The notes under the pieces: generated by a model | Seen by the model: only the letters and a program-made list of their open reading frames with translations | What the model was told of the DNA's origin: nothing | Database searches by the model: none | Position numbers and translations under genes: made by a program | Source of the DNA: Desulforamulus ruminis DSM 2154 | Lineage (GTDB): Bacteria; Bacillota; Desulfotomaculia; Desulfotomaculales; Desulfotomaculaceae | NCBI RefSeq assembly: GCF_000215085.1 | Contig: NC_015589.1 | Location: forward strand, 1,860,001 to 1,924,000 | Length of the DNA stretch: 64,000 nucleotides | Direction: 5' to 3' | Shown: positions 6,747 to 19,449 of the stretch, in pieces | Position numbering within the stretch: the stretch's first letter is position 1 | How the letters are laid out: the number at the start of each line of letters is the position of its first letter

Positions 6747-7574
6747 ATGAGATCCCTCTGGAAAGGGGCCGTCAGCTTTGGTCTGGTATATGTCCCCGTA
6801 AAAATGTACGCTGCCACTGAAAAGAAAAATGTTAAATTTAATTACCTGCATGAAAAATGCAAAACTCCCGTACAATACCGGCGTTATTGTCCCTACTGCG
6901 ATGCGGAAGTGGAGATGGAGGAACTAGTAAAGGGCTATGAATATGAGAAGGGCCAATATGTGGTGATCCGGGAAGAAGATTTTGAGAACCTGCCCGGAGA
7001 AAATACCCGCAGTATTAATATTGTGGATTTCGTGGATTTAACGGAAATTGATCCCCTTTATTTTGATAAGGGATACTATCTGGCGCCGGGAGACGGAGGA
7101 CAGAGAGTTTACGAACTGCTGAAAAAATCCATGGAGGAAACCGGCAAGGTGGCCTTGGCCAAAGTAGTGATTCGTAATAAGGAGTCCCTGGCAGCATTGC
7201 GGGTGGCCGAAGGGGTTATTACCATGAGCACTATGTTTTACCCGGACGAAGTGAGGAAAACCACCGCCATTCCGGAATTGCACTACCAGGTCAGTATTCA
7301 CGACAACGAGCTAAAAATGGCCATTGATTTGATCAATAATCTGGCGGCTCCCTTTCACCCGGAGAAATACACCGATGAATATCGTGAACAATTGATGCAG
7401 GTTATTCAGGCCAAGGTAGCCGGAGAAGGCGTTGAATTGCCGCCGGCCAAGGAATCGGAAAAAGTAGTTGATTTAATGTCCGCTCTCAAAGCCAGCATAG
7501 ACCTAGCCAAACAGGAACGGGACGGCCAAAAGAAAAAGGGCCAAAGGACCAAGAAAAAGGCAGCCGGCATTTAG
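6747..7574 (+). CDS. ku: Non-homologous end-joining protein Ku
   Basis: 275 residues starting MRSLWKGAVSFGLVYVPVKMY, a hallmark of bacterial Ku. The core ring domain spans most of the protein and a short Lys-rich tail (KKKGQRTKKKAAGI) ends it, as is common for DNA-binding tails of bacterial Ku. The homodimer encircles broken DNA ends and recruits LigD. AGGAG stands 9 bases before ATG 6747. It forms an operon with the LigD ligase gene 11 bases downstream. In spore formers this pair repairs breaks during germination; a forespore-specific promoter was looked for but not convincingly found. Confidence 0.97.
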   Translation: MRSLWKGAVSFGLVYVPVKMYAATEKKNVKFNYLHEKCKTPVQYRRYCPYCDAEVEMEELVKGYEYEKGQYVVIREEDFENLPGENTRSINIVDFVDLTEIDPLYFDKGYYLAPGDGGQRVYELLKKSMEETGKVALAKVVIRNKESLAALRVAEGVITMSTMFYPDEVRKTTAIPELHYQVSIHDNELKMAIDLINNLAAPFHPEKYTDEYREQLMQVIQAKVAGEGVELPPAKESEKVVDLMSALKASIDLAKQERDGQKKKGQRTKKKAAGI

Positions 7575-7585
7575 AGGAGGTCTAT

Positions 7586-8536
7586 ATGCGGCAGGAAAAA
7601 GAACTACCCAATTTAAAGCCCATGCTGGCGGTGAAGGCCGCTCCCTTTGACAGTGACGATTACTTGTATGAAATTAAGTGGGACGGCTATAGGGCATTGG
7701 CCTATCTAAATCAACAAACCCTTCTTTATTCCCGCAATCAACTGGATCTTACCAAAAGTTTTCCAGACCTGCAGGGACTGCATCTCAGGGTAAAGCAGAA
7801 ACCCCTCATTTTAGACGGTGAAATTGTGGTATTAAAGGACGGAAAACCTTCCTTCAGCGCTCTACAATCCAGGGGCAAGCTCAGTGATCCTTTGAAGATA
7901 CGCAGGCTTTGCCAACAAAATCCCGCTACTTTTGTGGTCTTTGATGTACTTTTTAGCAACGGGAGGAATTTAATGAACCTTCCCCTTCTCCAGAGGAAAA
8001 AATTTCTGGAGGAAATGGCGGAACAGGGACCGGATTTAATTGTCTCCCAGTATGTGCTGGGTTCCGGTTGTGAGTTCTTTAGGGTGGTTAAAGCCGCAGG
8101 TTTGGAAGGAATGGTAGCTAAAAGACTGGACAGCCCTTACTTACCGGGTAAAAGATCCGGCTACTGGAAAAAAATCCGTTGGGTTCAGTCCGCCGATCTG
8201 GTTATTTGTGGTTGGGAAAAGGGAGAAGGGCAGAGATTGTTGGGAGCACTGATTTTAGGCGTCCCGGAGAAGGGAGGCTGGGTATATATGGGGAAGGTAG
8301 GGACGGGTTTTAGTAGGGAAGAGGAGAAAAGAATCATTACTTTGTTAAAACCTTTGGAAGGACATCCCCCCTTTTCCAGCCTGCCGGATGAGGATTTTCG
8401 GAAAACCGTCTGGGTTTGTCCGGAATTAGTTTGCGAGGTTACCTTTAGTGAGATCAGCCCGGAGGGGCGGTTGAGGCACCCAAGTTACAAGGGGCTGCGC
8501 AAAGATAAAAAGGCGGAAGAATGCGGCCACCTATAA
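7586..8536 (+). CDS. ligD: ATP-dependent DNA ligase (stand-alone LigD ligase domain)
   Basis: 316 residues. The nucleotidyltransferase motif I is EIKWDGYRA with catalytic Lys31. LDGEIVVL (motif III area) and MVAKRLDSPY...GYWKKIR (motifs IV-V) follow. The C-terminal OB domain ends around residue 310. AGGAGG precedes ATG 7586. Only the ligase domain is present; the polymerase domain is a separate gene at 17227-18141 and no phosphoesterase domain is seen in this window. The gene follows ku in one operon and ends at a bidirectional terminator. Confidence 0.95.
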   Translation: MRQEKELPNLKPMLAVKAAPFDSDDYLYEIKWDGYRALAYLNQQTLLYSRNQLDLTKSFPDLQGLHLRVKQKPLILDGEIVVLKDGKPSFSALQSRGKLSDPLKIRRLCQQNPATFVVFDVLFSNGRNLMNLPLLQRKKFLEEMAEQGPDLIVSQYVLGSGCEFFRVVKAAGLEGMVAKRLDSPYLPGKRSGYWKKIRWVQSADLVICGWEKGEGQRLLGALILGVPEKGGWVYMGKVGTGFSREEEKRIITLLKPLEGHPPFSSLPDEDFRKTVWVCPELVCEVTFSEISPEGRLRHPSYKGLRKDKKAEECGHL

Positions 8537-8570
8537 AAGCACATAATCCTTAAAATTATGTGCTTTGTTA
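8536..8570. terminator. Bidirectional terminator between ligD and the response regulator
   Basis: AAAGCACATAAT (8536-8547) pairs perfectly with ATTATGTGCTTT (8555-8566) around a 7-base loop. The gene pair is convergent and A/T runs flank both sides, so the hairpin can stop transcripts from either strand. Confidence 0.8.
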
Positions 8571-8571
8571 T

Positions 8572-9933
8572 TTAAAGTTTAATTTTATATTTTTGGGCTC
8601 TATAAAGGAGTGCGGAACGGGTGATGCCCAGCAAATTGGAAGCTTTGGTTTGATTGCCATTGCTTTTTTCCAAGGCCTTTAACAGCAGTTCCTTTTCAAC
8701 TTCTTCAAAAGAAATGCCCTCATCAGGAAAATTCAAGATCAGTCCTTTAGAAGAAGCCTCTTTTTTCGGGTCATCGCTTTTTTGAATTTCCTTGGAAAGA
8801 TGATGTTCTTTAATTTCATTGCCCTGGGAAAGGATGACCGCCCGTTCAATTACATTTTGCAATTCGCGGATATTTCCGGGCCACTCATAAGCACACAGCA
8901 GACCCATGGCGCCGGGAGTAATTTGCGGTTCCCGGTTGGGATTAAATTTATTTAAAAAATGCAGTACCAGCAAAGGAATATCTTCAACCCTTTCCCTTAA
9001 GGGGGGAAGGTGAATGGGCAGGACATTTAAACGATAATATAAATCCTCCCGAAAGGTTCCCCTTTTGATGCAATCCACCGGGTCGCGGTTGGTGGCGGCA
9101 ATGACCCGGACATCCACTTTAATGCTCCCGGTGCCGCCCACCCTTTCAAAGGTCCTCTCCTGTAAAACCCGTAAGAGTTTCACTTGCATGGACAGGGGCA
9201 TCTCGGTCACCTCGTCCAGAAAAAGAGTTCCTTCATTGGCTAACTCAAAGCGACCCAGTTTGCGGGCCACCGCCCCGGTAAAAGCACCTTTTTCATGGCC
9301 AAACAACTCACTTTCCAGTAATGATTCAGGCAGGGCGGCGCAATTAATGGGCACAAAAGGCTTATCCCGCCGGGAACCGGACTGGTGAATGGACAAAGCG
9401 GTAACTTCTTTGCCGGTGCCGCTTTCGCCGGTTATCAAGACCGTGGCGCTGCTGTCCGCGACCTTTTCAATCAAGGCGCATACGTCTTGAATGGCTTGGC
9501 TGTTGCCGACAATCTGGCCGTATTTTTTATTCAGTTCTAAACGCAGAAAAGTCACTTCGCTTTGCAGATGGCTCACCATTAAGGCCTGCTTCACCACCAT
9601 TTTCAGCTCGTCCAGGTCGAAAGGCTTGGTGATGTAATCGGTGGCCCCGTGCTTCATGGCTTCAATGGCGGTGTCGATGGTGCCGTGGGCTGTAATCATA
9701 ATGACCGGAAGCTTGGGATAGAGGTCCTTGGCTGCGGTTAAAACCTCCAGACCGTCCATTTCCGGCATTTTTAAATCCAGGATTACCAGAGAGGGAACTT
9801 CATTGCGGATGACTTCTAGCCCCTCCTTGGACCGGGTGGCTGTCAGCACTTGATAACCTTCCTGACGCAGGCCTTTTTCCAGTGCCCAGCACATATGCTC
9901 CTCATCATCAATAATTAAAATCTTATTGCTCAT
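8572..9933 (-). CDS. NtrC-family sigma-54-dependent response regulator
   Basis: 453 residues with three domains. The receiver has acidic residues DDEE near the start and the phospho-acceptor Asp53 in LVILDLKMPEMDG. The AAA+ domain carries Walker A GESGTGKE (about 169-176) and the sigma-54 contact loop GAFTGA (about 216-221). A Fis-type HTH ends the protein (KASNLLGITRSALLYRAQKY). ATG 9933 is chosen because GGAAGG lies a suitable distance upstream; GTG 9942 overlaps that site. It overlaps the upstream kinase gene by 11 bases. Its likely target is the sigma-54 promoter at 11662-11677, the only one seen in the window. Confidence 0.95.
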   Translation of the reverse strand: MSNKILIIDDEEHMCWALEKGLRQEGYQVLTATRSKEGLEVIRNEVPSLVILDLKMPEMDGLEVLTAAKDLYPKLPVIMITAHGTIDTAIEAMKHGATDYITKPFDLDELKMVVKQALMVSHLQSEVTFLRLELNKKYGQIVGNSQAIQDVCALIEKVADSSATVLITGESGTGKEVTALSIHQSGSRRDKPFVPINCAALPESLLESELFGHEKGAFTGAVARKLGRFELANEGTLFLDEVTEMPLSMQVKLLRVLQERTFERVGGTGSIKVDVRVIAATNRDPVDCIKRGTFREDLYYRLNVLPIHLPPLRERVEDIPLLVLHFLNKFNPNREPQITPGAMGLLCAYEWPGNIRELQNVIERAVILSQGNEIKEHHLSKEIQKSDDPKKEASSKGLILNFPDEGISFEEVEKELLLKALEKSNGNQTKASNLLGITRSALLYRAQKYKIKL

Positions 9934-11461
9934 ACAAAACACTTCCTTCCCCTGGGGTGCATTTCGGCAGGCTTACATTAAAGATGGTTCCATTGGGAGA
10001 GGTTTGTACAACCCGAATGGTGCCCTGGTGCATGTGTATTATTTGATGGCTGATGGACAAGCCCAGGCCGGATCCGTCGTCCTTGGTGGTATAAAAGGGA
10101 TCGAAAATTCGCGGCAAATCCTTACTCTCAATGCCCTTTCCGGTATCCATAAAGTCTACCTGGACCGTACCGTTTTCAGCATAGGTTTTTATGGTTAATT
10201 TTCCTCCCTCGGGCATAGCCTGAATGGCATTTAACATTAAATTTACAAAAACTTGTTTGATCCGGTCCGCATCAATGGCTGCCAGCGGCAGTCCGCTAGA
10301 CAACTCTTTGACCAGCGTAATTTTGTTTTGTCTGAGCATGGGGGAGATAAAAGTAAGGACCGAATCCAACAAGGAGTTGAGATCTGTTGGATGGATGATC
10401 GGCTTACTTGGACGTCCAAAATCCAGTAACTCCTGGATGACTTTATTTCCCCGGTCAATCTGATCGCAAACCACGCTGGTGTATTCCCGAATACCCGGCA
10501 GTGCCTTGTATTCACCCTCCATGACCTGAACGGTGGCCTTGACAATGCCTAAAGGATTGCGAAGTTCATGGGCGATCCCGGTTACCAGACGACCTAAGGC
10601 CACCAAACGTTCAGAACGCAGCAGCTCTTCTTCCAGTCTTTTCTTTTCCTTTAAATGATCCGCCATGTTGTTGATGGCCTGAACCACTTCCCCCATTTCT
10701 CCCGGCATGGACGGCAGCCGTTGAGAGATGTCCTCTTCCATTCCCAGCAACCCTTTTTTGATTACACTCACCTCGGCAGCCAGATTATGGATCACATAAA
10801 GGGCTGCCAGCAATCCAAAAATGAGCCCGAACAAAGTGAGGTATCTGGCCACTAAACTGAATTGCCTGCTTTGGGCAAAGACCGGGTGTACTTGTTCGTC
10901 CGCCCAGGCGATAGCAATAAGTTTATCATTGTTCATAACCGGGATGAGATATTCAAAGGTTTGATCTCCCAAGGAACCGGTAATGCGGGATAAAGGTTCT
11001 TTGGTGGCGGATACGGCCGTTAAACCGGAGGAAGCTTCGTTAAAAATACGTCTTTCACGGGCTTCAATTTCCTCCTGGGAAAAGGGACGGTAGCGGTGTA
11101 AAAAACCATGAACAAAAATATCATGGGTTTTTGGAATATAGAGACCCAGACGAACGCCAGGATTTGCCTCCGCCAAAGGTTTAGCCGTAATTTCAAAGGC
11201 GCTGCTGAGCATGGCCACTCCCGCCGGGGAAGTAAGGAGCGTGTCTTTTTGCGGATGCTCATTCAGAAAATCATGCAGACCGTTTACCGTGGCTTTGACG
11301 ATGGTTCCCAGGCGTTCTTCCTTGGTCTTTAATAACATTTCATCCTTGGTGCCCACGAAAAAAATGTCGTAGATCATGACCAGGATGGGAATCAACATAA
11401 TGACGGATATGGTAATGGTAATTTGGGTAGCAAAGGACCTATTTCGTAAGATTTTTAGCAA
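9923..11461 (-). CDS. Membrane sensor histidine kinase of the NtrB/AtoS type
   Basis: About 512 residues from TTG 11461, chosen because AAGGGGG lies about 6 bases upstream; longer in-frame starts give an unlikely Cys-rich leader. It has TM1 (about 13-36), an extracytoplasmic sensor region (about 37-205), TM2 (about 207-225), HAMP, a HisKA box with His298 in GIAHELRNPLG, and an HATPase domain with NLMLNAIQAMPEGG and DTGKGIESKDLPRIFDPFYTTK. It phosphorylates the partner regulator encoded by the overlapping downstream gene. The ligand cannot be read from the sequence; the SulP gene in the facing operon suggests an anion or related metabolite, which is only inference. Confidence 0.93.
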   Translation of the reverse strand: MLKILRNRSFATQITITISVIMLIPILVMIYDIFFVGTKDEMLLKTKEERLGTIVKATVNGLHDFLNEHPQKDTLLTSPAGVAMLSSAFEITAKPLAEANPGVRLGLYIPKTHDIFVHGFLHRYRPFSQEEIEARERRIFNEASSGLTAVSATKEPLSRITGSLGDQTFEYLIPVMNNDKLIAIAWADEQVHPVFAQSRQFSLVARYLTLFGLIFGLLAALYVIHNLAAEVSVIKKGLLGMEEDISQRLPSMPGEMGEVVQAINNMADHLKEKKRLEEELLRSERLVALGRLVTGIAHELRNPLGIVKATVQVMEGEYKALPGIREYTSVVCDQIDRGNKVIQELLDFGRPSKPIIHPTDLNSLLDSVLTFISPMLRQNKITLVKELSSGLPLAAIDADRIKQVFVNLMLNAIQAMPEGGKLTIKTYAENGTVQVDFMDTGKGIESKDLPRIFDPFYTTKDDGSGLGLSISHQIIHMHQGTIRVVQTSPNGTIFNVSLPKCTPGEGSVLYEQ

Positions 11462-11484
11462 AGGGGATCCCCCTTTCTGATAAA

Positions 11485-11500
11485 TGCTTGTTAACAAGCA
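11485..11500. promoter_or_regulatory. Perfect 16-bp palindrome upstream of the kinase gene
   Basis: TGCTTGTTAACAAGCA is fully self-complementary and lies between the kinase start and the sigma-54 promoter. A related, looser dyad, TTGCTT-N5-AAGCAA, lies about 107 bp away at 11591-11607. Both are candidate binding sites for the NtrC-like regulator. Confidence 0.5.
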
Positions 11501-11514
11501 AAAAGAATTACAAG

Positions 11515-11632
11515 TGTACAAAAACATACAAAACCTTTGGATAAGGTTGTTTCTGTTAAAAAGGGAGGGTCAAGGAGTAATAAAAAAATATTGCTTCTCT
11601 TAAGCAAAGCAAAAGGTGTTTAAAAACGTACA
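11515..11632. promoter_or_regulatory. Candidate upstream activating sites (GTACAAAA-type dyads)
   Basis: TGTACAAAAACATACA (11515-11530) and TGTTTAAAAACGTACA (11617-11632) have TGT/ACA ends, and their centres are 102 bp apart, close to ten helical turns. They sit about 140 and 40 bp upstream of the -24 element. Enhancer sites for NtrC-type activators are usually paired dyads at about this range. The regulator's true site is not known. Confidence 0.45.
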
Positions 11633-11661
11633 AAAATATTTGCTCTATAGCTATTTATTAT

Positions 11662-11677
11662 TGGCACGAGCCTTGCA
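11662..11677 (+). promoter_or_regulatory. Sigma-54 (-24/-12) promoter
   Basis: TGGCAC (11662-11667), five bases, then TTGCA (11673-11677) matches the sigma-54 consensus exactly, with GG and GC 10 bases apart. It reads toward the CBS-domain gene and leaves a leader of about 185 bases. The NtrC-type activator gene on the other strand supports it strongly. Confidence 0.92.
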
Positions 11678-11780
11678 TAATGTAATGACAAAATGAAAAG
11701 ACAAAATTCACAATATGCATGACAAAACTACCTTAATTATAACATATCACTTTTAAAGCTTTAAAGTAGAGGGCGGGAAT

Positions 11781-11830
11781 GTTTGTAAAAAAATTTACAA
11801 ACAAAATTTTACACCGCTTTTTGTACAAAA
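11781..11830. promoter_or_regulatory. Inverted repeats in the leader of the CBS gene
   Basis: GTTTGTAAA (11781-11789) and TTTACAAAC (11794-11802) form a perfect 9-bp inverted repeat. TTTTGTACAAAA (11819-11830) is a perfect 12-bp palindrome sharing GTACAAAA with the sites upstream of the promoter. They may be operator sites or an RNA hairpin. Confidence 0.4.
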
Positions 11831-11871
11831 TCAAACAGGTATTGCTGCGGATACAGGAGGGTGAGTCCTGC

Positions 11872-12366
11872 ATGCCGGGTTGTATGGAAAAGAAGGTTAA
11901 GGACATTATGCTCCCAATACAGGACTATGCCACGGTATTTTTAGAAAATACCCTGCGGGATGCCGTGTTTGTTCTTAAAAATACATTCTATGCCGGTTGT
12001 GCGGAAGGATCCCAGGCACACCGATCTGTTTTGGTATTTAACAGTAAAAAAAAACTTGTGGGAACTTTAGGCTTTAAAGAGGTTATGCATTTGCTGCGGT
12101 TATCCAAGGAAATGCCTAAAAACCGGGATGAACTTTTTATCTCTTTGTGTATCAGTCAATCGGGCAAAAAGGTTAAGGATGTTATGGCACCCATTGGGAG
12201 CGAATTTGTAAATGCTGAAGACAGTGTTTTGGATGCTGCTCATCTTTTAATCCATTCGGGCTTGGATTTAATACCGGTTTTGGAGAAAGGGAATGTCGTC
12301 GGTATGATCCGCTCGGCAGAGATATTTAAGGAAGTTAGTCAATTGCTTGAGGAAAACACCTTTTAA
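11872..12366 (+). CDS. CBS-domain pair protein
   Basis: 164 residues from ATG 11872, 11 bases after AGGAGG; an in-frame extension to 11779 would translate the inverted repeats and is rejected. Two CBS motifs are visible: KVKDIMLPIQDYATVFLENT...VGTLGFKEVM and KVKDVMAPIGSEFVNAEDSVLDAAHLLIHSGLDLIPVLEKGNVVGMI. CBS pairs (Bateman modules) usually bind adenosyl ligands such as AMP, ATP or SAM. It is the first gene behind the sigma-54 promoter and sits 15 bases before the next gene. Its partner is unknown; the SulP transporter or the HTH protein downstream are candidates. Confidence 0.85.
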   Translation: MPGCMEKKVKDIMLPIQDYATVFLENTLRDAVFVLKNTFYAGCAEGSQAHRSVLVFNSKKKLVGTLGFKEVMHLLRLSKEMPKNRDELFISLCISQSGKKVKDVMAPIGSEFVNAEDSVLDAAHLLIHSGLDLIPVLEKGNVVGMIRSAEIFKEVSQLLEENTF

Positions 12367-12381
12367 GGGGTGGGAGACCTG

Positions 12382-12702
12382 TTGAATTTTGAAATGCTGA
12401 AACATTATTTTACTGCTTCCCTGGATTCCGAAAAGATGAATGAATATTGGCGCAATGCACAAACAGCCAGTGAATTGGCGGATACTTATCCACATTTGAA
12501 TAAAGAGCTAGTTATCTACTGTACTTTTTTGCTGCCCTTGGTCAAGCAAGGGATAATAAACATTCATAATCCCCGTGATGTAATGGATTTGTTTACTGAA
12601 GCAAATTGGGAGCAGGGTCTGCAGGTATATCATGCGCTGATCCATTCCCAGGGGGCCTTTGCTACCGGTGAAGCTAGGGTTGCTCAGCATTTTTGGCAAT
12701 AA
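12382..12702 (+). CDS. Hypothetical protein (106 aa) in the sigma-54 operon
   Basis: TTG 12382 is preferred because GGTGGGAG lies about 6 bases upstream; GTG 12370 is in frame but too near its own site. The product is mostly helical, beginning MNFEMLKHYFTASLDSEKM, with Trp and Tyr residues spread along it and no membrane segment or Cys cluster. I do not recognise a family. Close packing between the CBS gene and the HTH gene suggests it belongs to the same regulatory unit. Confidence 0.75.
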   Translation: MNFEMLKHYFTASLDSEKMNEYWRNAQTASELADTYPHLNKELVIYCTFLLPLVKQGIINIHNPRDVMDLFTEANWEQGLQVYHALIHSQGAFATGEARVAQHFWQ

Positions 12703-12720
12703 AACAAACATGTCAGTGGG

Positions 12721-13521
12721 GTGGTGACTGTGGAAAAAAAGTATTTTAAGAAGATCAAACATAATCATTCCCGGAACTTAAAAGTGGTGTTGAGAGAGCT
12801 GCGTCGATGCAGCGAACAAGGGGGGGCGTCCCTGGAGTATTTGGCACAAAAATGCGGAGTCAGCACCCGGCAGATTTATCGCTATTTAAATGAATTACAG
12901 GCCATGGGTTTTGAAATATTGAGATCGTCGAACCTGCCTCCCGGGGAACGCGGCGGTTATACCGTAAGGGAACCGGAAAACGCTAAAAACGGGCCGGAGT
13001 TTGGTTTAATGTCGATTTTGGTTGAATTAAATCAATATAAAAATGAACTCCAGGCAGCCAAGGTGTTTATTAAAGAATGGCTTTTACGAGTCTGGTTAAG
13101 CCAGTTGGGGATTGTTCTTCCTTTAACACAGCCCATCATTTTTTATGATCTTAACGATGCCGTCCATGTGAGTCGGCAGACCATGGTATTTTCGGATTCA
13201 GCCGAGGAACTGGTAGAGGATGTGAAATTAAAGGTATCACCTAAAGTTGTAACCAGTGTATCCAGGGCGTTCATGCCCGAAATGGTTTCCAAACAAAGAT
13301 ATTCTGATGGAAGCTATATTATCAACTTAAAAACAAAACGTCCGGCGGAATTAAGCGGGTTGCTGGTGCAGTGGGGTCATGATGTGGAAATATTGGAACC
13401 CGGCTGGTTGCAGCACCGGTTAATTGAAAACTGCAAGGCCATTTTGTTTGCCCACCGGCAAAGGAAAATTGCCAAAACAAGTCTGTATTCTCCGGAAGAT
13501 AAAATGCTATTTAGTTATTAA
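12721..13521 (+). CDS. HTH-domain protein with unassigned C-terminal region
   Basis: 266 residues (263 if GTG 12730 is used, which has better spacing to GGGGTGGTG). The N-terminus (about 20-75) is a DeoR/HTH_11-like winged helix: LEYLAQKCGVSTRQIYRYLNELQAMGFEI. The rest (about 90-265) lacks a recognisable WYL or sugar-binding domain. It is 18 bases after the 106-aa gene. It probably regulates its own operon or the sulP gene 218 bases downstream. The class of N-terminal domain is fairly sure, the function is inferred. Confidence 0.85.
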   Translation: MVTVEKKYFKKIKHNHSRNLKVVLRELRRCSEQGGASLEYLAQKCGVSTRQIYRYLNELQAMGFEILRSSNLPPGERGGYTVREPENAKNGPEFGLMSILVELNQYKNELQAAKVFIKEWLLRVWLSQLGIVLPLTQPIIFYDLNDAVHVSRQTMVFSDSAEELVEDVKLKVSPKVVTSVSRAFMPEMVSKQRYSDGSYIINLKTKRPAELSGLLVQWGHDVEILEPGWLQHRLIENCKAILFAHRQRKIAKTSLYSPEDKMLFSY

Positions 13522-13739
13522 TCTGAAACGGGGAAGAGGAGGGAGCGTGGGAATAAGTTGAGGGCGGAAGAATCCCTTGACTCTTGAGAGACTATGAGCA
13601 GCTAGTCATTCTATTAACGAAAGAAAAAGTGCCTTGTTTTTTTAAAGATATAAATGCAAACTTTCACAATCCATTCCTAAACAGCAACAGGATTACAGCA
13701 CCTTGTGGGTTACAAAAATTCGGTTTGGGGGCTAAATTT

Positions 13740-15476
13740 ATGAATATCCTTAAATTTATACCTATTTTGGACACCTTGCGTCATTATAACAAAAGTGACT
13801 TTAAGTTTGATCTTACCGCCGCTTTAACCGTTGCGGTGGTGGCCCTGCCGCAAACCATGGCTTACGCCATGATTGCAGGAGTTCACCCGGCTTACGGGTT
13901 GTATTCGGGGATTGTGCTGACCATCCTGGCGTCCTCCTTTGGCAGTTCCAACCAGCTTGCCACCGGTCCCACCAACGCCATCTGTTTGTTAATTGCCGCT
14001 TACATGGTTCCTTTTGTGGGTCAGGACAACTTCTTTGCCAATTTGTTTTTACTGACCTTTATGGTGGGGGCAATTCAATTTGCCATGGGCGTATTTAGGC
14101 TGGGTTCCCTTGTGAATTATGTATCTCACGCAGTGATTGTGGGTTTTACAGCCGGAGCCGGTATCATCATTGCCATGGGACAGCTCAATAATTTGCTGGG
14201 CGTTAAACTTCCCGGCGGCCACCTTTCCAGCATTGATAAAGTGGTCATTTGTTTTCAGAGTCTGGACAAAATGAATTATACCGCCTTTGGTATAGGCCTC
14301 TTTACCATCGCAGTGATTATTTTATGCAAAAAGATTAGCAAAAATATTCCCGGGGCCTTGTTGGGAGTTGTTTTTTCGGTTATTTTAGTGGTAGCTCTTG
14401 ATTTGGAAAAATATGGGGTGAAAATTGTAGGTGAAATACCCAAGGCCATCCCTCCCCTGAGCATGCCGAACTTTAGCCTCTCGGCGGTATCGGACTTATC
14501 TGCCGGGGCGCTGGTGATCGCCATTATCGGTCTGGTGGAGGCTGTTTCCATATCCAAGGCCATTGCTTCCCAGACCCAGCAAAAAATTAATCCCAATCAG
14601 GAGTTTATTGGTCAGGGTATAGCCAACATGGGCGGCTCCTTTTTTAGCTGTATCGCGGGCTCCGGTTCCTTTACCCGCTCCGCCATTACCTTTCAGAACG
14701 GCGGCAGAACCAGACTGACCGGAGTCCTGGTTGGATTCATTATCCTGATCGTATTATTCTTCTTTGCGCCCTATGCCAAGTATATTCCCAATGCCAGCCT
14801 GGCCGGCGTGATCATGGTGGTTGCCTATTCCATGATTGATAAGAAGGCCATGGTTAAGGTGCTGAAGACCAACCGAAATGACGCGGTTGTTTTATTGGTC
14901 ACCATGCTTACCACCATCTTTGCCCCGGAACTGGAGTACGCCATCTATGCCGGCGTGGCCCTCTCCCTGCTGTTATACTTAAAGGACTCCGGGGTGGCCA
15001 GTGTTCGAACCCTGGCTCCTATACAAGCCAGTGATGGAAGATTTGTGGAGCGGGAAATTAATGGAGAGAAAAATACAGCGGAAGCCCAATCCATCTCGAT
15101 TATCCAGTTGGAAGGAAATCTTTATTTTGGATCTGCCTCAGACCTGGAGAAAAAGCTGAGTGAGGCGTACAATGATTCCAAAGTATATCTTATTCGCTTC
15201 AAAGGAGGGGCGATCATCGATATTACCGCCCTGGAAGTGATCGAATCCTTTATCAACCGGGCCATGGGCGATGGGAGAAGAATCATCCTTTCAGGAGTTA
15301 CCCCCAAGCTTCATAAAATGCTGGATAAGATGCATATTATTCATCATGTTGGTGAAGAAAACATTTTCATGGAGGACGACGAGGTCTTTGCATCCTCCGG
15401 TAAAGCCCTGGATGAAGCCAGCTCTTTTGTGAGAAAGATCAGTTATAATGTTCAGGAGAAAGCCGTTCAGATATAA
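13740..15476 (+). CDS. SulP family anion transporter with STAS domain
   Basis: 578 residues from ATG 13740, with GGGGG 8 bases upstream. An in-frame extension to 13584 has no ribosome site and non-conserved content. The SulP signature region ALTVAVVALPQTMAYAMIAGVHPAYGLYSG starts near residue 32, followed by about 12-14 membrane segments. The C-terminal STAS domain (about 440-550) includes IRFKGGAIIDITALEVIESF. SulP proteins carry sulfate, bicarbonate or other anions; the substrate cannot be told here. It lies in line with the sigma-54 operon, but 218 bases separate it from the HTH gene and no clear promoter was seen in that gap. Confidence 0.93.
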   Translation: MNILKFIPILDTLRHYNKSDFKFDLTAALTVAVVALPQTMAYAMIAGVHPAYGLYSGIVLTILASSFGSSNQLATGPTNAICLLIAAYMVPFVGQDNFFANLFLLTFMVGAIQFAMGVFRLGSLVNYVSHAVIVGFTAGAGIIIAMGQLNNLLGVKLPGGHLSSIDKVVICFQSLDKMNYTAFGIGLFTIAVIILCKKISKNIPGALLGVVFSVILVVALDLEKYGVKIVGEIPKAIPPLSMPNFSLSAVSDLSAGALVIAIIGLVEAVSISKAIASQTQQKINPNQEFIGQGIANMGGSFFSCIAGSGSFTRSAITFQNGGRTRLTGVLVGFIILIVLFFFAPYAKYIPNASLAGVIMVVAYSMIDKKAMVKVLKTNRNDAVVLLVTMLTTIFAPELEYAIYAGVALSLLLYLKDSGVASVRTLAPIQASDGRFVEREINGEKNTAEAQSISIIQLEGNLYFGSASDLEKKLSEAYNDSKVYLIRFKGGAIIDITALEVIESFINRAMGDGRRIILSGVTPKLHKMLDKMHIIHHVGEENIFMEDDEVFASSGKALDEASSFVRKISYNVQEKAVQI

Positions 15477-15562
15477 AAATTAAATATAATAGAACGTACT
15501 AATTAAGTCAAGTTCAGATTTTTTTTTACAGGTTTTATTAAAAAAATGAAAAAGTATTTTAT

Positions 15563-15590
15563 AAAGCAGCTCCATGGGGGCTGCTTTTTT
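15563..15590 (+). terminator. Intrinsic terminator after sulP
   Basis: AAAGCAGC (15563-15570) pairs with GCTGCTTT (15580-15587) and is followed by a T run. It closes the sulP transcription unit. Confidence 0.8.
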
Positions 15591-15607
15591 ATACGATTAT
15601 TCAAAAA

Positions 15608-15676
15608 TATAAGCTGTAGGGATGAAATTTCGCCAGGGGAACAGCCAAAATTTTCTCAGGCAAAGGGATAAAAAGA
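15608..15676 (+). ncRNA. Weak glycine-riboswitch-like segment
   Basis: The stretch TTTTCTCAGGCAAAGGGAT (around 15650-15668) resembles the conserved 3' part of glycine aptamers (CUCUCAGGCAAAAGGAC), and GCCAGGGGAACAGCC before it loosely resembles their central core. The 5' pairing half is poor and no glycine gene follows, so it is at best a degenerate or unusual aptamer. Confidence 0.2.
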
Positions 15677-15839
15677 TTTTTTAGAGTAGTGTATAATTGG
15701 CAGATAAAGCATGTGACTGAAAGAAAAATAGAGATAAGTCCCAAAAATTGCTTCTTATGGCGTTGTACAAAATATTTATTAAAAGTTATCTTAAGAAAAA
15801 ATAAAAGTACCTTCTTTTTAAAGACTTGTGAATTATTTC

Positions 15840-15934
15840 TGTTATGGCGGACAGGGTGCGAAGCGATGGCTTGGCATTGGGTAGGCCAGCATTTTTTACG
15901 GATGTTTCATCCGTTTCCTAATGCTGGTTTTTTT
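15840..15934 (+). promoter_or_regulatory. Structured leader ending in an intrinsic terminator
   Basis: CCAGCATT (15886-15893) pairs with AATGCTGG (15920-15927), enclosing a second hairpin ACGGATG/CATCCGT, and seven T residues follow. TTGGCATT (15871-15878) could pair with the same AATGCTGG using three wobble pairs, an arrangement like an antiterminator. The G-rich sequence before it (15845-15885) matches no riboswitch class I know. The next gene starts at 16054. Confidence 0.45.
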
Positions 15935-16053
15935 GTTTTACTAAATTTATATTCTTTAAGGTAGTATAAGTACAACCGGAATTGGTCTGAATCAAAGGTA
16001 GCTTAAGTGAATGATGATGTTATTTATTTGGTAATTTTGAGAGGGGGAAAAGG

Positions 16054-16336
16054 AATGGTCGGAGGAGCGAAGTGTGGAAAATGCGTGTATAAAGAACAGT
16101 GTGATATTCGCCATCATCTTAATGAAATTATAAAAACAGCCATTGAAAAAGCGGAAAGTTATGTTAAAGAGTTAGCCCCCAGGGAAATTGATTATATGAT
16201 TGTTACCGATATCTCGGTTATCCCTACCCGGTGTGAAAGATTCCGCTGTATTGAGGAAAGTCCGGAAAAAGACCTGGGCCGTAATGAGGAAAGCTTATTT
16301 ATTCTGGGCCGCAGGCTGGCTCCCACAGCAATATAA
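16054..16336 (+). CDS. Small Cys-motif hypothetical protein (93 aa)
   Basis: ATG 16054 follows GAGGGGG with suitable spacing; an upstream in-frame ATG at 16007 lacks a site. The N-terminus carries CGKCVYKEQC, a possible metal or Fe-S binding cluster, with two more Cys in TRCERFRCIE. The middle is helical (HHLNEIIKTAIEKAESYVKEL). I do not recognise the family. It lies downstream of the terminator-ended leader at 15840-15934, which may control it. Confidence 0.7.
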
Positions 16337-16345
16337 GATTTACGT

Positions 16346-16370
16346 AAAGAGAGTGTGCAAAGCTCTTTTT
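16346..16370 (+). terminator. Weak intrinsic terminator
   Basis: AAAGAG (16346-16351) pairs with CTCTTT (16363-16368) and is followed by T residues. The short stem makes it uncertain; it ends the 16054 gene just before repeat copy 2. Confidence 0.4.
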
Positions 16371-16380
16371 AATAGCGCCC

Positions 16381-16524
16381 AAGAACAGGCAGATAACACA
16401 AACAATCAATGGAACACGAATTTAACGGATTATACGGATTTGCGCGGATTTGAAATAAAGATTAAAAGATCCGCGTGAATCCGTGAAATCCGTATAATCC
16501 GTGTTCTATTATTTTTATTTTTGG
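16381..16524 (+). repeat. Palindromic dispersed repeat, copy 2
   Basis: It starts AAGAACAGGCAGATAAC and ends GTGTTCTATTATTTTTATTT, the same ends as copy 1 at 6438-6567. The core inverted repeat is longer: GGATTATACGGATTT...GCGCGGAT against ATCCGCGTGAATCCGTG...GTATAATCC, with the same AAATAAAGATTAA-like loop. The stems differ in sequence between copies while pairing is kept, which suggests selection for structure or parallel origin from one family. Confidence 0.85.
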
Positions 16525-16730
16525 CTGCAGTAAAAAGAATATCAAAACGGTGGAAACGAGAGCAGTAAAACCATTATGAAAGAATAAGTGCAAAAAATCA
16601 CTAAATCAACTTAAAATGACCCTGTACATTAATTTTTTGTTTTATTACATTAGTACCACAATGACAGAGAGATTTGTCAACAGATACGGCTTTGGTTTGT
16701 CACAAAAAGTGTAAAGGGGGCTGTTTGAAG

Positions 16731-17108
16731 ATGCAGTCCGTTATGGAGAAAAAGATTTGCGATGAATTTATAAAGTTTCAAAAAAATCTGGTTGGCCGGG
16801 GGCCCGAATGCACCAGAGTCATGATTTGTCGGGATATGGTCATCATCCGGTCTTCCGGGGTTTTGACCAAGGAAGAGAAACATGTTTGTGGAACCCCCAA
16901 GGGCAGATCCCTGGTAAAGCAGTTGCGCTTGGAACTGCGGGATACGTATATTAATCAAATTGAATCCCTGATCAAGAGCATTACCTTTTGTAAAGTTAAC
17001 AGCAGCCACGGAGATATTTCCATTCGCACCGGGGAACACATTGAAGTTTTTATCCTGGACCAAGATCTGGAAAAGCGGCTGCAAACCGGCGGAATGAGTC
17101 AGCGGTAA
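16731..17108 (+). CDS. DUF2294 family protein
   Basis: 125 residues from ATG 16731, 10 bases after AAAGGGGG. The pattern GRGPECTRVMICRDMVIIRSSGVLTKEEK...GRSLVKQLRLELRDTY matches the DUF2294 family, small Firmicutes proteins of unknown role. No membrane segment is seen. The terminator at 17152-17173 closes it as a single-gene unit. In-frame sequence upstream to 16674 has no ribosome site and is left out. Confidence 0.85.
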   Translation: MQSVMEKKICDEFIKFQKNLVGRGPECTRVMICRDMVIIRSSGVLTKEEKHVCGTPKGRSLVKQLRLELRDTYINQIESLIKSITFCKVNSSHGDISIRTGEHIEVFILDQDLEKRLQTGGMSQR

Positions 17109-17151
17109 AAGATTGATTGCGGAAAATAATGAAGAAATATCAATAAATCAT

Positions 17152-17180
17152 GCCCGGTTTGAATAAACCGGGCTATTCTA
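17152..17180 (+). terminator. Hairpin after the DUF2294 gene
   Basis: GCCCGGTTT (17152-17160) pairs perfectly with AAACCGGGC (17165-17173) around a 4-base loop. The following T-rich run is interrupted, so termination may be partial. Confidence 0.65.
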
Positions 17181-17226
17181 TTGCCTGCTGGGGAAGATTA
17201 TAGTAAAAAAACAGGGAGGCAGTGGA

Positions 17227-18141
17227 ATGGCCGCAAAAGGTTCCACCGAGGTTTCCATTAACGGAAGAGTGCTTAAGCTTACCAATCTGGATAAACAATT
17301 GTGGCCCGAGGGGTTGACCAAAGCGCATCTGGTAAAGTATTATACGGACATTGCGCCATACCTGTTGCCCCTAATTAAGGATCGTCCTCTGGTGATGAAA
17401 AGATATCCCCACGGCATCGAAGGGGAATATTTTTATCAAAAAGAATGTCCGGAATATGCGCCCGAATGGATCCACAAGGAAAAAATTTCCCATTCGGGGA
17501 AAGATGTCCGATACGTTATTTGCAATGACCTGCCGACATTGATCTGGCTGATCAACCAAGGGTGCATTGAGATTCATGGCTGGCTGTCCAAAAGAGGAGC
17601 CATTGAATATCCGGATGTGGCTGTCATTGATTTGGACCCTGGCAAGGATGTTTCTTTCCAGGGGGTTATGGAAGTGGCCCTGGTGGTTAAAAAAACCCTG
17701 GATCAGCTCGGTTTAAAAGGTTTTCCCAAAACCTCCGGCGCCAGCGGCATTCATGTTTTTATTCCCTTAGAACCAGGATATACTTTCCGGGAGGCAACCA
17801 AGGCCATGGGCTGGGTCGCCAAGCTGGTAACCGGAGCCTTTCCTGAAAAGGCCACCATTGAGAGGGTACTGACCAAAAGGAGACCGGATAAGGTTTATGT
17901 GGATTATTTACAAAATACCCGGGGCAAAACCATGGCCTGGACCTACAGTCTGCGGCCGCTGCCGGGCGCACCGGTTTCCACACCGTTGTTATGGGAGGAA
18001 ATTGAAAAATTTTCAATTCATCCCGCCCAATTTACCATGGACTCCATTTTTCACCGTATAAAAATCTTTGGCGACATTGCTGCTGCCATGAATTTGCAGA
18101 GGCAAACCTTGGATTCTATAAGGCCAATGGTCTCATTTTAA
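17227..18141 (+). CDS. ligD: LigD polymerase/primase domain protein
   Basis: 304 residues, the stand-alone LigPol (archaeo-eukaryotic primase-like) domain. Early motif LTNLDKQLWPEGLTKAHLVKYY and the metal-binding DLDPG at about residues 138-142 are visible, as is KTSGASGIHVFIPL. It fills gaps and adds ribonucleotides at breaks before sealing. AGGGAGG precedes ATG 17227. It lies 8.7 kb from ku and the ligase gene, so the NHEJ polymerase is not in their operon. The short gap to dprA suggests shared transcription. Confidence 0.95.
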   Translation: MAAKGSTEVSINGRVLKLTNLDKQLWPEGLTKAHLVKYYTDIAPYLLPLIKDRPLVMKRYPHGIEGEYFYQKECPEYAPEWIHKEKISHSGKDVRYVICNDLPTLIWLINQGCIEIHGWLSKRGAIEYPDVAVIDLDPGKDVSFQGVMEVALVVKKTLDQLGLKGFPKTSGASGIHVFIPLEPGYTFREATKAMGWVAKLVTGAFPEKATIERVLTKRRPDKVYVDYLQNTRGKTMAWTYSLRPLPGAPVSTPLLWEEIEKFSIHPAQFTMDSIFHRIKIFGDIAAAMNLQRQTLDSIRPMVSF

Positions 18142-18173
18142 GGTTTTTTTTATCGGTTGGAAGGAAAAACCAA

Positions 18174-19319
18174 ATGACATCCCGAAAGTGGAAGGAATGT
18201 TTCCATCGGGGTGATTTTTTGAACAATCGCCAATTCTATATTTGCTGGCAATTATTACTGCCGGGCTATGGCCGGCGAATTTGGGAAATCATCGACTTTT
18301 TTGGCTCTCCCCGGCAAGCCTGGGAAGCTTCCGAAAAAGATTTATCCCAAATATCCTTTTTGGGCTCCCAAGGAGCCCAAAGGCTGATCAGACAAAGAGA
18401 AAATATAAATTATGAGCATATCATACAGCATTGTGAAAATATTGGCTGCAGCATCGTAACCATGGTGGATGAAAGTTATCCCCCGTTGCTAAAAGCCATT
18501 TATGATCCACCGCCGGCCCTGTTTGTCCGGGGCCGGCTTCCCCGGGAAAAGGCAGCCGTTGCCGTGGTGGGTTCCCGGCGGCCAACGCCCTATGGTCTGG
18601 CTGCTTCCGAAGCCATGGCCGGAGAACTGGCCATGGCCGGTTTGGTCATTGTCAGCGGCATGGCCAGAGGAATTGACAGTGCCGCTCACCGGGGAGCTCT
18701 TAAAGTGAAGGGAGATACGGTAGCCGTATTGGGTTGCGGTCCGGATATTGTATATCCCAGGGAAAATGGCTGTTTAATGAAGCAAATCATTGATCAGGGT
18801 GCGGTGGTCACCGAGTTTCCACCGGGAAGCCCTCCGGTGGGGTGGCATTTTCCCAGCCGCAACCGGATTATCAGCGGCTTAAGTGCCGCGGTGCTGGTGG
18901 TTGAGGCGGCGGAAAAAAGCGGCGCGTTGATTACCGCAGACCTGGCCTTGGAACAGGGAAGAGAGGTTTTGGCCATACCCGGGAATATTACCAGTTTGCA
19001 AAGTTCCGGCACCAATACATTAATTAAGGAAGGTGCCCGCTTGGTTGCCGGTCCGCTGGATGTTTTAGAGCCTTTGGGATTAGGGGAGCTTTTCATTCAT
19101 CCCCAACCGCAAGATCCTCCTTTGGCTCCTGAGGAGAAAAAGGTGTATACTTGTCTTTCCTATCTGCCGCAATCCCTGGAAGAAATTGTTGCAGAAAGCC
19201 ATTTAAAACCTCAAGAGGCTGCCGCAGCTCTAACCTTGCTGGAGGTAAAAGGGCTTATCCGGATTGTACAGGGTAAAATGTACGTCCGGGCCGGGCAACC
19301 CGGTTTGCCGATGTTCTAA
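18174..19319 (+). CDS. dprA: DNA-processing protein DprA
   Basis: 381 residues. The Rossmann-like core runs from VAVVGSRRPTPYGLAASEAMA through SGMARGIDSAAHRGAL and FPSRNRIISGLS to AIPGNI (about residues 125-285). A C-terminal winged-helix domain (LPQSLEEIVAESHLKPQEAAAALTLLEVKG) is present. DprA binds single-stranded DNA and loads RecA in transformation. GGAAGG lies 9 bases before ATG 18174. The order dprA-topA-trmFO-xerC is the usual Firmicutes one. Confidence 0.96.
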   Translation: MTSRKWKECFHRGDFLNNRQFYICWQLLLPGYGRRIWEIIDFFGSPRQAWEASEKDLSQISFLGSQGAQRLIRQRENINYEHIIQHCENIGCSIVTMVDESYPPLLKAIYDPPPALFVRGRLPREKAAVAVVGSRRPTPYGLAASEAMAGELAMAGLVIVSGMARGIDSAAHRGALKVKGDTVAVLGCGPDIVYPRENGCLMKQIIDQGAVVTEFPPGSPPVGWHFPSRNRIISGLSAAVLVVEAAEKSGALITADLALEQGREVLAIPGNITSLQSSGTNTLIKEGARLVAGPLDVLEPLGLGELFIHPQPQDPPLAPEEKKVYTCLSYLPQSLEEIVAESHLKPQEAAAALTLLEVKGLIRIVQGKMYVRAGQPGLPMF

Positions 19320-19449
19320 AATAAAGTCTTTTGGGATACATTTTTAAAAAGATATCGGAAGGCAATACTAACGTTATTAACCGAGTCTAGTCGTAATAAG
19401 AAAGGTTATGCTATTCATAACAAAGGTTTCATAAAATGAGGTGTACCAA

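Follow-up and report, generated by a model that had tools for sequence, protein, structure and literature searches.

Layout of the locus

This report concerns a divergent gene island in the genome of Desulforamulus ruminis DSM 2154 (3.97 Mb, one contig) in which a two-component regulatory pair faces an operon for an anion transporter of the SulP family. The stretch of DNA analysed, called the window below, is 64,000 nucleotides long (positions 1860001-1924000 of that genome), and coordinates refer to it unless a locus or genome is named. The genes for the sensor histidine kinase and the NtrC-type regulator lie on the minus strand; the operon on the plus strand encodes a CBS-pair protein, a protein of 106 residues, a helix-turn-helix (HTH) protein and the SulP transporter. 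The genes and the regulatory features between them are as follows.

8572..9942, minus strand: NtrC-type response regulator (PF00072, PF00158, PF02954; GAFTGA in the translation)
9923..11461, minus strand: sensor histidine kinase (HisKA, HATPase_c), with a probable start; the longest open reading frame extends to 11527
10838..11371, minus strand: sensor domain of the kinase, with a model like PAS/Cache-like sensors
11485..11500: upstream palindrome 1, TGCTTGTTAACAAGCA, perfect
11515..11530: upstream palindrome 2, 30 bp from palindrome 1
11617..11632: upstream palindrome 3
11662..11677, plus strand: sigma-54 (-24/-12) promoter TGGCACGAGCCTTGCA, TGGCACG-AGCC-TTGC-A, the sole mismatch-free match in 64 kb
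11780..11803: perfect inverted repeat in the leader, TGTTTGTAAA, 4 nt, TTTACAAACA; against the palindrome consensus the core reaches 12/16
11822..11837: palindrome 4, downstream and within the untranslated leader; 9/9 genomes of the genus have a downstream site
11872..12366, plus strand: CBS-pair protein, 164 residues (PF00571, two stretches), start set by conservation
12382..12702, plus strand: 106-residue protein (P110), with an HD-like helical model lacking the HD residue pair
12721..13521, plus strand: HTH and WCX regulator without WYL (PF13730/PF08279, PF25583), by genus alignment
13740..15476, plus strand: SulP transporter with STAS domain and PAYGLY, 578 residues (PF00916, E 9.9e-98; PF01740)

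The kinase probably starts at a TTG near 11461, as judged from the starts of its relatives, and the SulP start at 13740 was placed in the same way. For the CBS gene the start is most likely 11872, since five of eight alignments to relatives begin at or after that codon and none of the eight needs the first 16 residues; AGGAGGGTGAG precedes it. An earlier note on this DNA had given the second operon gene as a protein of 106 residues, which holds with the start at 12382. It had also placed a perfect -24/-12 promoter between the regulatory pair and the operon, and this promoter was found at 11662-11677, without a mismatch, and in all nine genomes of the genus. The island in that note began at 11485, the first base of upstream palindrome 1.

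Conservation of the island in Desulforamulus

The order of kinase, regulator, CBS, HTH and SulP genes is identical in 9/9 Desulforamulus genomes, and the gene for the 106-residue protein is present in eight of them, being missing in G003 (L039). A search for a conserved neighbourhood had been proposed as a check on the island; when run, it showed that the arrangement is not unique to this genome. The block in the genus reads NtrC and kinase, then, divergently, CBS, P110, HTH, SulP, the small protein x109 and MpsC. At one locus (L041) the kinase, HTH and SulP genes are frameshifted. In two relatives (L034, L036) a second CBS gene stands before SulP. Six of the seven relatives tabulated have a DASS gene within 7.5 kb downstream, and three have CitMHS; the window has neither there.

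In 8/8 relatives (L034-L041; for example, L034:6051-6194) the operon opens with a gene of 46-48 codons, whose product has the pattern MT..QF..W.Q.K..., with Shine-Dalgarno-like sequences upstream. Differences per codon position of 0.19/0.11/0.52 give it a protein-coding pattern. The gene is missing from the corresponding part of the window (11680-11870), and a tblastn search of the 64 kb gave no significant match.

Promoter and palindromes in the genus

The promoter at 11662..11677 has the GG and GC dinucleotides with the spacing of the -24/-12 class and is kept among relatives, TGGCA-N6-TTGC lying at the equivalent place in 9/9 Desulforamulus genomes. Its significance comes from this conservation, because matches with up to two mismatches are at chance level (16 seen, 15.89 expected). 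A scan for sigma-70-like promoters was also near chance (19 seen, 13.1 expected, standard deviation 4.2).

All nine genomes have four copies of a 16-bp palindrome, TGT-N10-ACA, around the promoter. The sites are phased: relative to the -24 element they lie at -177 to -206, -147 to -176, -45 to -67 and +121 to +186, and the first two are in tandem, with a spacing of about 30 bp, in 9/9 genomes. Shuffled regions contain 0.18-0.31 sites each. In the source genome the pattern TGYHYRWWWWYRDRCA has 15 matches, against six for the reversed control; four of these are in the intergenic region described here and the other 11 are lone. In the other genomes of the genus, matches number 9-20 against 3-9 for the control; in G007 there are at least 9 against 9, with clustering seen among the matches listed. 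Two of the 11 lone matches are an identical 16-mer, and a copy of dsrA follows one of them at about 0.6 kb. They were not counted as targets because both fall in a dispersed repeat, which holds a chance match to the palindrome. This repeat of about 150 bp is present in the source genome in copies about 70% identical (L219:4224-4382, L220:3835-3983, L220:6970-7107).

The kinase and the regulator

With a receiver domain, a PF00158 AAA+ domain bearing GAFTGA and a Fis-type HTH, the regulator is a sigma-54 enhancer-binding response regulator. The pair had been described as NtrB/NtrC-like; NtrC-type is right, and NtrB/NtrC proper is not, as the proteins fall below the NCBIfam cut-offs. The regulator misses both NtrC equivalog cut-offs (453.7 vs 558.6 for TIGR01818, 385.7 vs 620 for NF008176), and the kinase misses that of NR(II) (NF008293, 117.6 vs 240). 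Among the NCBIfam models the pair comes closest to AtoS and AtoC, below the cut-off of each.

Hydrophobic segments, assigned by eye, surround an extracytoplasmic domain of about 175 residues in the kinase; a HAMP match is below cut-off. In its AlphaFold2 model (predicted local distance difference test, pLDDT, 83.9) this domain resembles a PAS/Cache-like extracytoplasmic domain, with structural matches to WalK (Z 13.0), CitA (Z ~11) and DcuS (Z 10.5). R74, R105 and W156 are invariant and H92 is nearly so among 61 sequences, an alignment from which partial, weak and >80%-identical sequences had been removed. Such residues would suit an anion ligand, and are no proof of one.

Recurrence across the class

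An alignment search with the sensor domain found the kinase family in 52 of 113 genomes of the class Desulfotomaculia. From 80 stretches (the window, L034-L041, L074-L076 and L108-L175) 77 kinase loci were obtained; L041, L150 and L174 were dropped, having no kinase open reading frame >900 nt. Some stretches overlap or share a contig (L118/L119, L120/L160, L146/L155, L123/L166). Neighbouring genes were labelled with seeds drawn from these same loci, and the seeds checked by Pfam were 11/11 for TSUP (the TauE/SafE family), 2/2 for SulP, 3/3 for DASS, 2/2 for CitMHS and 5/10 for CBS. The comparison set consisted of 20 sigma-54 activator loci picked by hand from three genomes (ten from G000, five each from G007 and G057), away from the sensor loci, and these were centred on the activator, the kinase loci on the kinase.

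An NtrC homologue lies within 7.5 kb at 76/77 kinase loci. At the same distance an anion transporter is found at 71/77 kinase loci vs 4/20 control loci, and a CBS gene at 45/77 vs 1/20. The transporters are TSUP (57 loci), DASS (20), CitMHS (11) and SulP (9). In family f3 (G027, G037, G053) TauE/SafE together with DASS or CitMHS replaces SulP, while the kinase, regulator, CBS and HTH-WCX genes stay; several further families have TauE/SafE, a 155-residue protein and a protein of about 220 residues in the divergent operon, often with CBS. The control module is therefore kept while the carrier changes.

Promoters and palindromes were counted in the 51 of the 77 loci that have a labelled divergent gene within 1.6 kb, and the remaining 26 were left out. 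The best -24/-12 score was matched by no more than 2 of 100 shuffles in 44/51 regions on the operon strand and in 4/51 on the other strand. Strict matches were present in 18/51 and 1/51, respectively, with 0.0 in dinucleotide shuffles. Shuffling preserved dinucleotides for the strict matches and base composition only for the promoter score and palindrome counts; the weights of the -24/-12 score and the palindrome consensus were set by hand. The palindrome matrix found 134 sites in the 51 regions, vs 2.6 in shuffles. The matrix was trained on Desulforamulus sites, so that the genus is no independent test, and the count was split for that reason: 35 sites fall in eight regions of the genus, four in six regions of a second type of island described below (L125-L127, L151-L153; none with two or more), and 95, vs 1.4 shuffled, in the 37 remaining regions, 31 of which have at least two. 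The palindromes track the regulator, since they are also present where an HTH-WCX gene is lacking within 7.5 kb. That the palindrome serves mainly as an operator for the HTH-WCX protein was rejected, as many palindrome loci have no such gene within that distance; the protein may use the palindrome additionally.

The sensor also follows dissimilatory sulfite reductase. dsrA (TIGR02064) scores over cut-off in 75/113 class genomes, in 51/52 with the sensor vs 24/61 without. In family f14 the dsrA-positive genomes G066 and G081 carry the sensor, and the other nine carry neither. In a sample of the phylum (n = 398) there were 14 sensor matches, 11 of them strong (>200 bits), of which nine are class genomes already counted; dsrA is present in 11/11 strong-sensor genomes vs 44/387 others. 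Two of the three weak matches have dsrA, and G382 does not.

Four further observations were made at these loci. The family of about 220 residues (p220), which has no Pfam match, recurs in TauE operons of several families (L110:12561-13289, L121:8810-9481 and others). A second island, in which a paralogous kinase/NtrC pair faces TauE/SafE, an x109 homologue and CBS, lies in the source genome (L125:6634-11993, where L125 is positions 2033001-2052000) and in L126, L127, L152 and L153; it has a sigma-54 promoter and nearly no TGT-N10-ACA sites. One control locus, L191 (G057:C1:2835901-2852400), has the order NtrC, CBS, TSUP, p220, CBS and is apparently a further related system. A different palindrome, TGTATTATAWCATRCA, perhaps another operator, appears once per regulatory region at varying positions in L112, L116, L121, L128, L134, L141 and L145.

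The accessory proteins of the operon

The CBS protein was considered as CbpB, the cyclic di-AMP-binding protein, and this was rejected on its score (NF041630, 34.2 vs a cut-off of 125).

The 106-residue protein has no Pfam match and is present in 8/150 relatives, all within the genus. AlphaFold2 gives it an all-helical model (pLDDT 89.7). In VIA this model matches 3dto (Z 10.2) and YpgQ (Z 8.9); the 22 best rows (Z 10.2 to 5.1) belong to the HD superfamily, in part by title, and rows from Z 4.6 down are unrelated. The best Foldseek E-value is 0.72, and helical bundles call for caution in such matches. No metal-binding H...HD...D residues are conserved among eight homologues, in which the stretch equivalent to HD, positioned by eye, reads LLP, LFP, LRE or VMM; A29, Y36, V44, E77, G96, E97 and A98 are invariant. 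The protein is here called a predicted pseudo-HD protein. It may be like the HD-domain phosphohydrolases YpgQ and BH2835 in its predicted fold over residues 1-106, and is unlike them in having neither the HD residue pair nor a match at the level of sequence.

The C-terminus of the HTH protein, previously thought unassigned, is a WCX domain (PF25583, E 1.8e-11). No WYL match was obtained at E up to 1. HTH and WCX are common to this protein and to the YafY-like HTH-WYL-WCX regulators; WYL was not found here. A scan of genome contigs with the single HTH protein sequence, protein only, found no relative. A search with an alignment found four loci, three in Desulforamulus (putei, aeronauticus, aquiferis) and one in a metagenome-assembled genome of Desulfotomaculum sp. 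HTH-only paralogues of the protein lie 6-10 kb downstream in L034 (14990-15421), L035, L037, L038 and L041, and in L034, L037 and L038 these are near a second MpsC (PF10057) gene.

The transported anion and a model for the island

The earlier note had proposed a signalling and anion-uptake system. This is well supported as a working function, because the gene order is conserved as a block in the genus and the association of regulator and transporter recurs throughout the class. We consider that the island is probably a dedicated sigma-54 two-component switch by which Gram-positive sulfate reducers govern their uptake of sulfate, or of a related sulfur oxyanion.

The ion carried by SulP is most likely sulfate, more so than bicarbonate; less probably it would be sulfite, thiosulfate, bicarbonate or a carboxylate. 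The protein has the Sulfate_transp and STAS domains and a PXYGLY motif (PAYGLY at 13887). Its nearest solved chains are prestin, a plant sulfate transporter and a sodium-independent sulfate transporter, the best at 248 bits. In PMC5840216, PXYGLY is given as a sign of the sulfate-type SulP clade C and as absent or poorly kept in the BicA- and DauA-type clades; the likeness to clade C is one of motif and domain (PXYGLY and STAS), and the sections consulted do not take up regulatory neighbours. That paper credits D. ruminis DL with one SulP, two DASS, one CysP and nine CysZ.

In the proposed mechanism, the kinase would read an external small anion through its PAS/Cache-like extracytoplasmic domain and phosphorylate the NtrC-type regulator. 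The phosphorylated regulator would occupy the tandem TGT-N10-ACA palindromes and enable sigma-54 RNA polymerase to open the -24/-12 promoter, from which the genes for the CBS, pseudo-HD, WYL-less HTH-WCX and SulP proteins would be transcribed. SulP would then import sulfate. The CBS, pseudo-HD and STAS parts probably match transporter activity or abundance to the adenylate state (adenylylsulfate, APS/ATP/AMP), and the CBS and pseudo-HD proteins could gate SulP, perhaps via its STAS domain. The HTH-WCX protein probably tunes transcription of the same or a neighbouring operon. Transcription may be limited at the leader palindrome, by the regulator or by the HTH-WCX protein. The steps from anion level to the making of SulP draw on the gene arrangement and its conservation, whereas the gating by CBS and pseudo-HD and the limiting role of the leader palindrome are inferred.

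A more far-reaching form of this model is offered tentatively. The kinase would be an external sulfate sensor which, through one palindrome and sigma-54, forms the on-switch for the main sulfate carrier of each Gram-positive sulfate reducer of the class, be it SulP, TSUP or DASS. In evolution one carrier would have been exchanged for another, with the sensor, the palindrome and, in many cases, the CBS protein retained, and CBS and pseudo-HD would serve as an energy gate on uptake. This is possible, and on present evidence the less likely outcome.

Several results weigh against the assignment to sulfate uptake. The SulP score is below the TIGR00815 cut-off (366 vs 380.45), and the SulP, TSUP and DASS families carry many anions. 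Within 7.5 kb, 6/77 loci have no transporter and 32/77 no CBS gene, some of them on short contigs. The sensor is absent from 24 dsrA-positive class genomes, and in G077 (88% complete) it occurs without dsrA. The second-island group retains the promoter but has only four palindromes in six regions, none paired. Outside the class, the strong matches L214 and L215 have no TSUP, SulP or DASS by BLAST label within about 8 kb on each side; the weak, dsrA-positive L217 and L218 adjoin ABC-transporter genes (by eye); and the weak match in G382 (L216) has neither dsrA nor such a transporter nearby. The link to transporters is consequently one shown for the class only. For the 106-residue protein the Foldseek E-values are weak, and no chain matched in a profile search of the PDB with its alignment. 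Finally, the genomes share ancestry, so that the counts are not independent.

Among the alternatives, the one that survives best holds that the island serves the efflux of, or stress from, sulfite or another sulfur oxyanion: the kinase would sense sulfite or thiosulfate and drive exporters of the TauE/SafE type elsewhere, for which SulP would be the Desulforamulus substitute. TSUP is indeed the commonest transporter near the kinase, but SulP proteins are uptake or exchange carriers and DASS proteins are symporters, and TSUP is placed with the CysZ-type candidates for sulfate uptake, its function being called unpredictable, in PMC5840216. We regard efflux as unlikely. Still less probable is bicarbonate uptake, with SulP as a BicA-like symporter that the linked MpsC-family gene accompanies, the sigma-54 control being the same as in the main model. 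BicA belongs to the SulP family, and a PF10057 'MpsC' gene does lie downstream in the genus. Against this, the SulP score to BicA (NF050096) is 223.8 vs a cut-off of 880, the match to 6ki1 (BicA) is 136 bits compared with the 248 of the best solved chain, PAYGLY is present, at other loci the kinase is accompanied mostly by TSUP and DASS, and the sensor goes with dsrA. DctBD-type systems are sigma-54 carboxylate systems, and an anion of the C4 or C2 carboxylate type, as in these or in AtoSC, would fit the relationship of the pair to AtoS and AtoC, the closeness of the sensor fold to CitA and DcuS and the carboxylate carriers within the CitMHS and DASS families, but is very improbable given the close dsrA link in the class, the PAYGLY of SulP and a score to DauA of 267.7 vs 614.

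Relation to known systems and significance

The description of the island as an undescribed system stands for the makeup of the operon under an NtrC-type pair and fails in so far as related clusters are on record (PMC11887813, PMC4641369 and possibly XhpR in PMC6615313). By these precedents, parts of the control logic were already known. PMC11887813 (2025) describes, for Desulfobacteraceae, clusters that join DASS to two-component systems and CBS proteins, and others in which SulP is accompanied by two-component systems and a TetR repressor; the regulators are WalR-type, and sulfate sensing and an energy-linked level involving CBS are proposed. A term search of that text gave no mention of Firmicutes, Desulfotomaculum or NtrC. 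The present island, too, combines a two-component system and CBS with DASS or SulP. Common to both are sulfate reducers as hosts, a kinase with a small-molecule extracytoplasmic sensor (Cache in the Desulfobacteraceae), CBS proteins beside DASS transporters and sulfate as the proposed effector; the sensor families are likened by description. Here, in contrast to the WalR-type regulators and the TetR at SulP, there are an NtrC-type regulator, a sigma-54 promoter and tandem palindromes, with the addition of the HTH-WCX and pseudo-HD proteins and, in relatives, the 47-residue protein.

For Desulfovibrio vulgaris, PMC4641369 (2015) reports nine operons that depend on sigma-54 and include TSUP or PSE transporters, whose substrate is given as unknown. 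These likewise belong to a sulfate reducer and have sigma-54 activators beside transporter operons; unlike the regulator described here, the activator named there, DVU2956, is single-component. A term search of that paper gave no match to SulP or CBS. TGT and ACA half-sites 10-12 bp apart are, in PMC6615313 (2019), the site type of fifteen groups of Clostridiales activators, and the upstream sites at this locus are of this type (TGT-N10-12-ACA), one of several activator site types. The same paper describes a sigma-54 regulon of XhpR, hyp-memP, with function unknown, in Desulfotomaculum, Desulfosporosinus and Carboxydocella, and an XptB that drives 'sulT, hyp' in other genera. XhpR, with the same TGT...ACA site type and its occurrence in Desulfotomaculum, may be the present regulator family or its paralogue, the two having been compared by description only. 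With AtoSC/NtrBC-type systems the island has in common a regulator with receiver, AAA+ and Fis HTH, upstream palindromic sites and a divergent target operon; it differs in its targets and in falling below the equivalog cut-offs of AtoC, NtrC, AtoS and NR(II).

The text available of PMC3333781 does not mention sulfate permease, SulP or TauE, that of PMC8586430 has sulfate permease only as a figure abbreviation, and the relevant passage of PMC4759654 mentions neither a transporter nor a sulfate permease. No paper joining an NtrC-type regulator to SulP in sulfate reducers of the Firmicutes was found in a search that left subscription papers and supplements aside. What is new here is the operon of SulP, CBS, pseudo-HD and HTH-WCX genes under an NtrC-type pair, the class-wide swap of carriers and the tie to dsrA.

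Sulfate uptake is the first step in the respiration of sulfate reducers; for its choice and control, the question of which of the many candidate transporters act needs further molecular study, according to PMC5840216. One sensor family, one site type and one promoter type point to the probable carriers in each genome. The sensor domain is a testable candidate for sulfate binding, and the control of sulfate uptake is directly testable. If the model is true, it would provide a rule that predicts regulons throughout the class, and a genetic means of acting on sulfide production.

Downstream and flanking features

Beyond SulP, the following were found on the plus strand.

15564..15590, plus strand: probable intrinsic terminator, AAGCAGC...GCTGCTT and a T run, by eye
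16007..16336, plus strand: small Cys-containing protein (x109), a linked gene downstream in 8/8 relatives
16674..17108, plus strand: PF10057 (MpsC/DUF2294) protein (E 5.3e-37), a linked gene downstream in 8/8 relatives

The terminator lies outside the output of the terminator scan, whose loop limit is 8. An Rfam scan of 8000-20000 found no RNA at the gathering threshold. Upstream of x109, at 15864-15940, there is a nested inverted repeat with a T run, CCAGCATT...AATGCTGG, seen by eye, which has no Rfam match at that threshold. The island is flanked by Ku and LigD-type genes (ligase and polymerase parts, named from their translations) at 6747-8536 and 17227-18141, a split set for non-homologous end joining.

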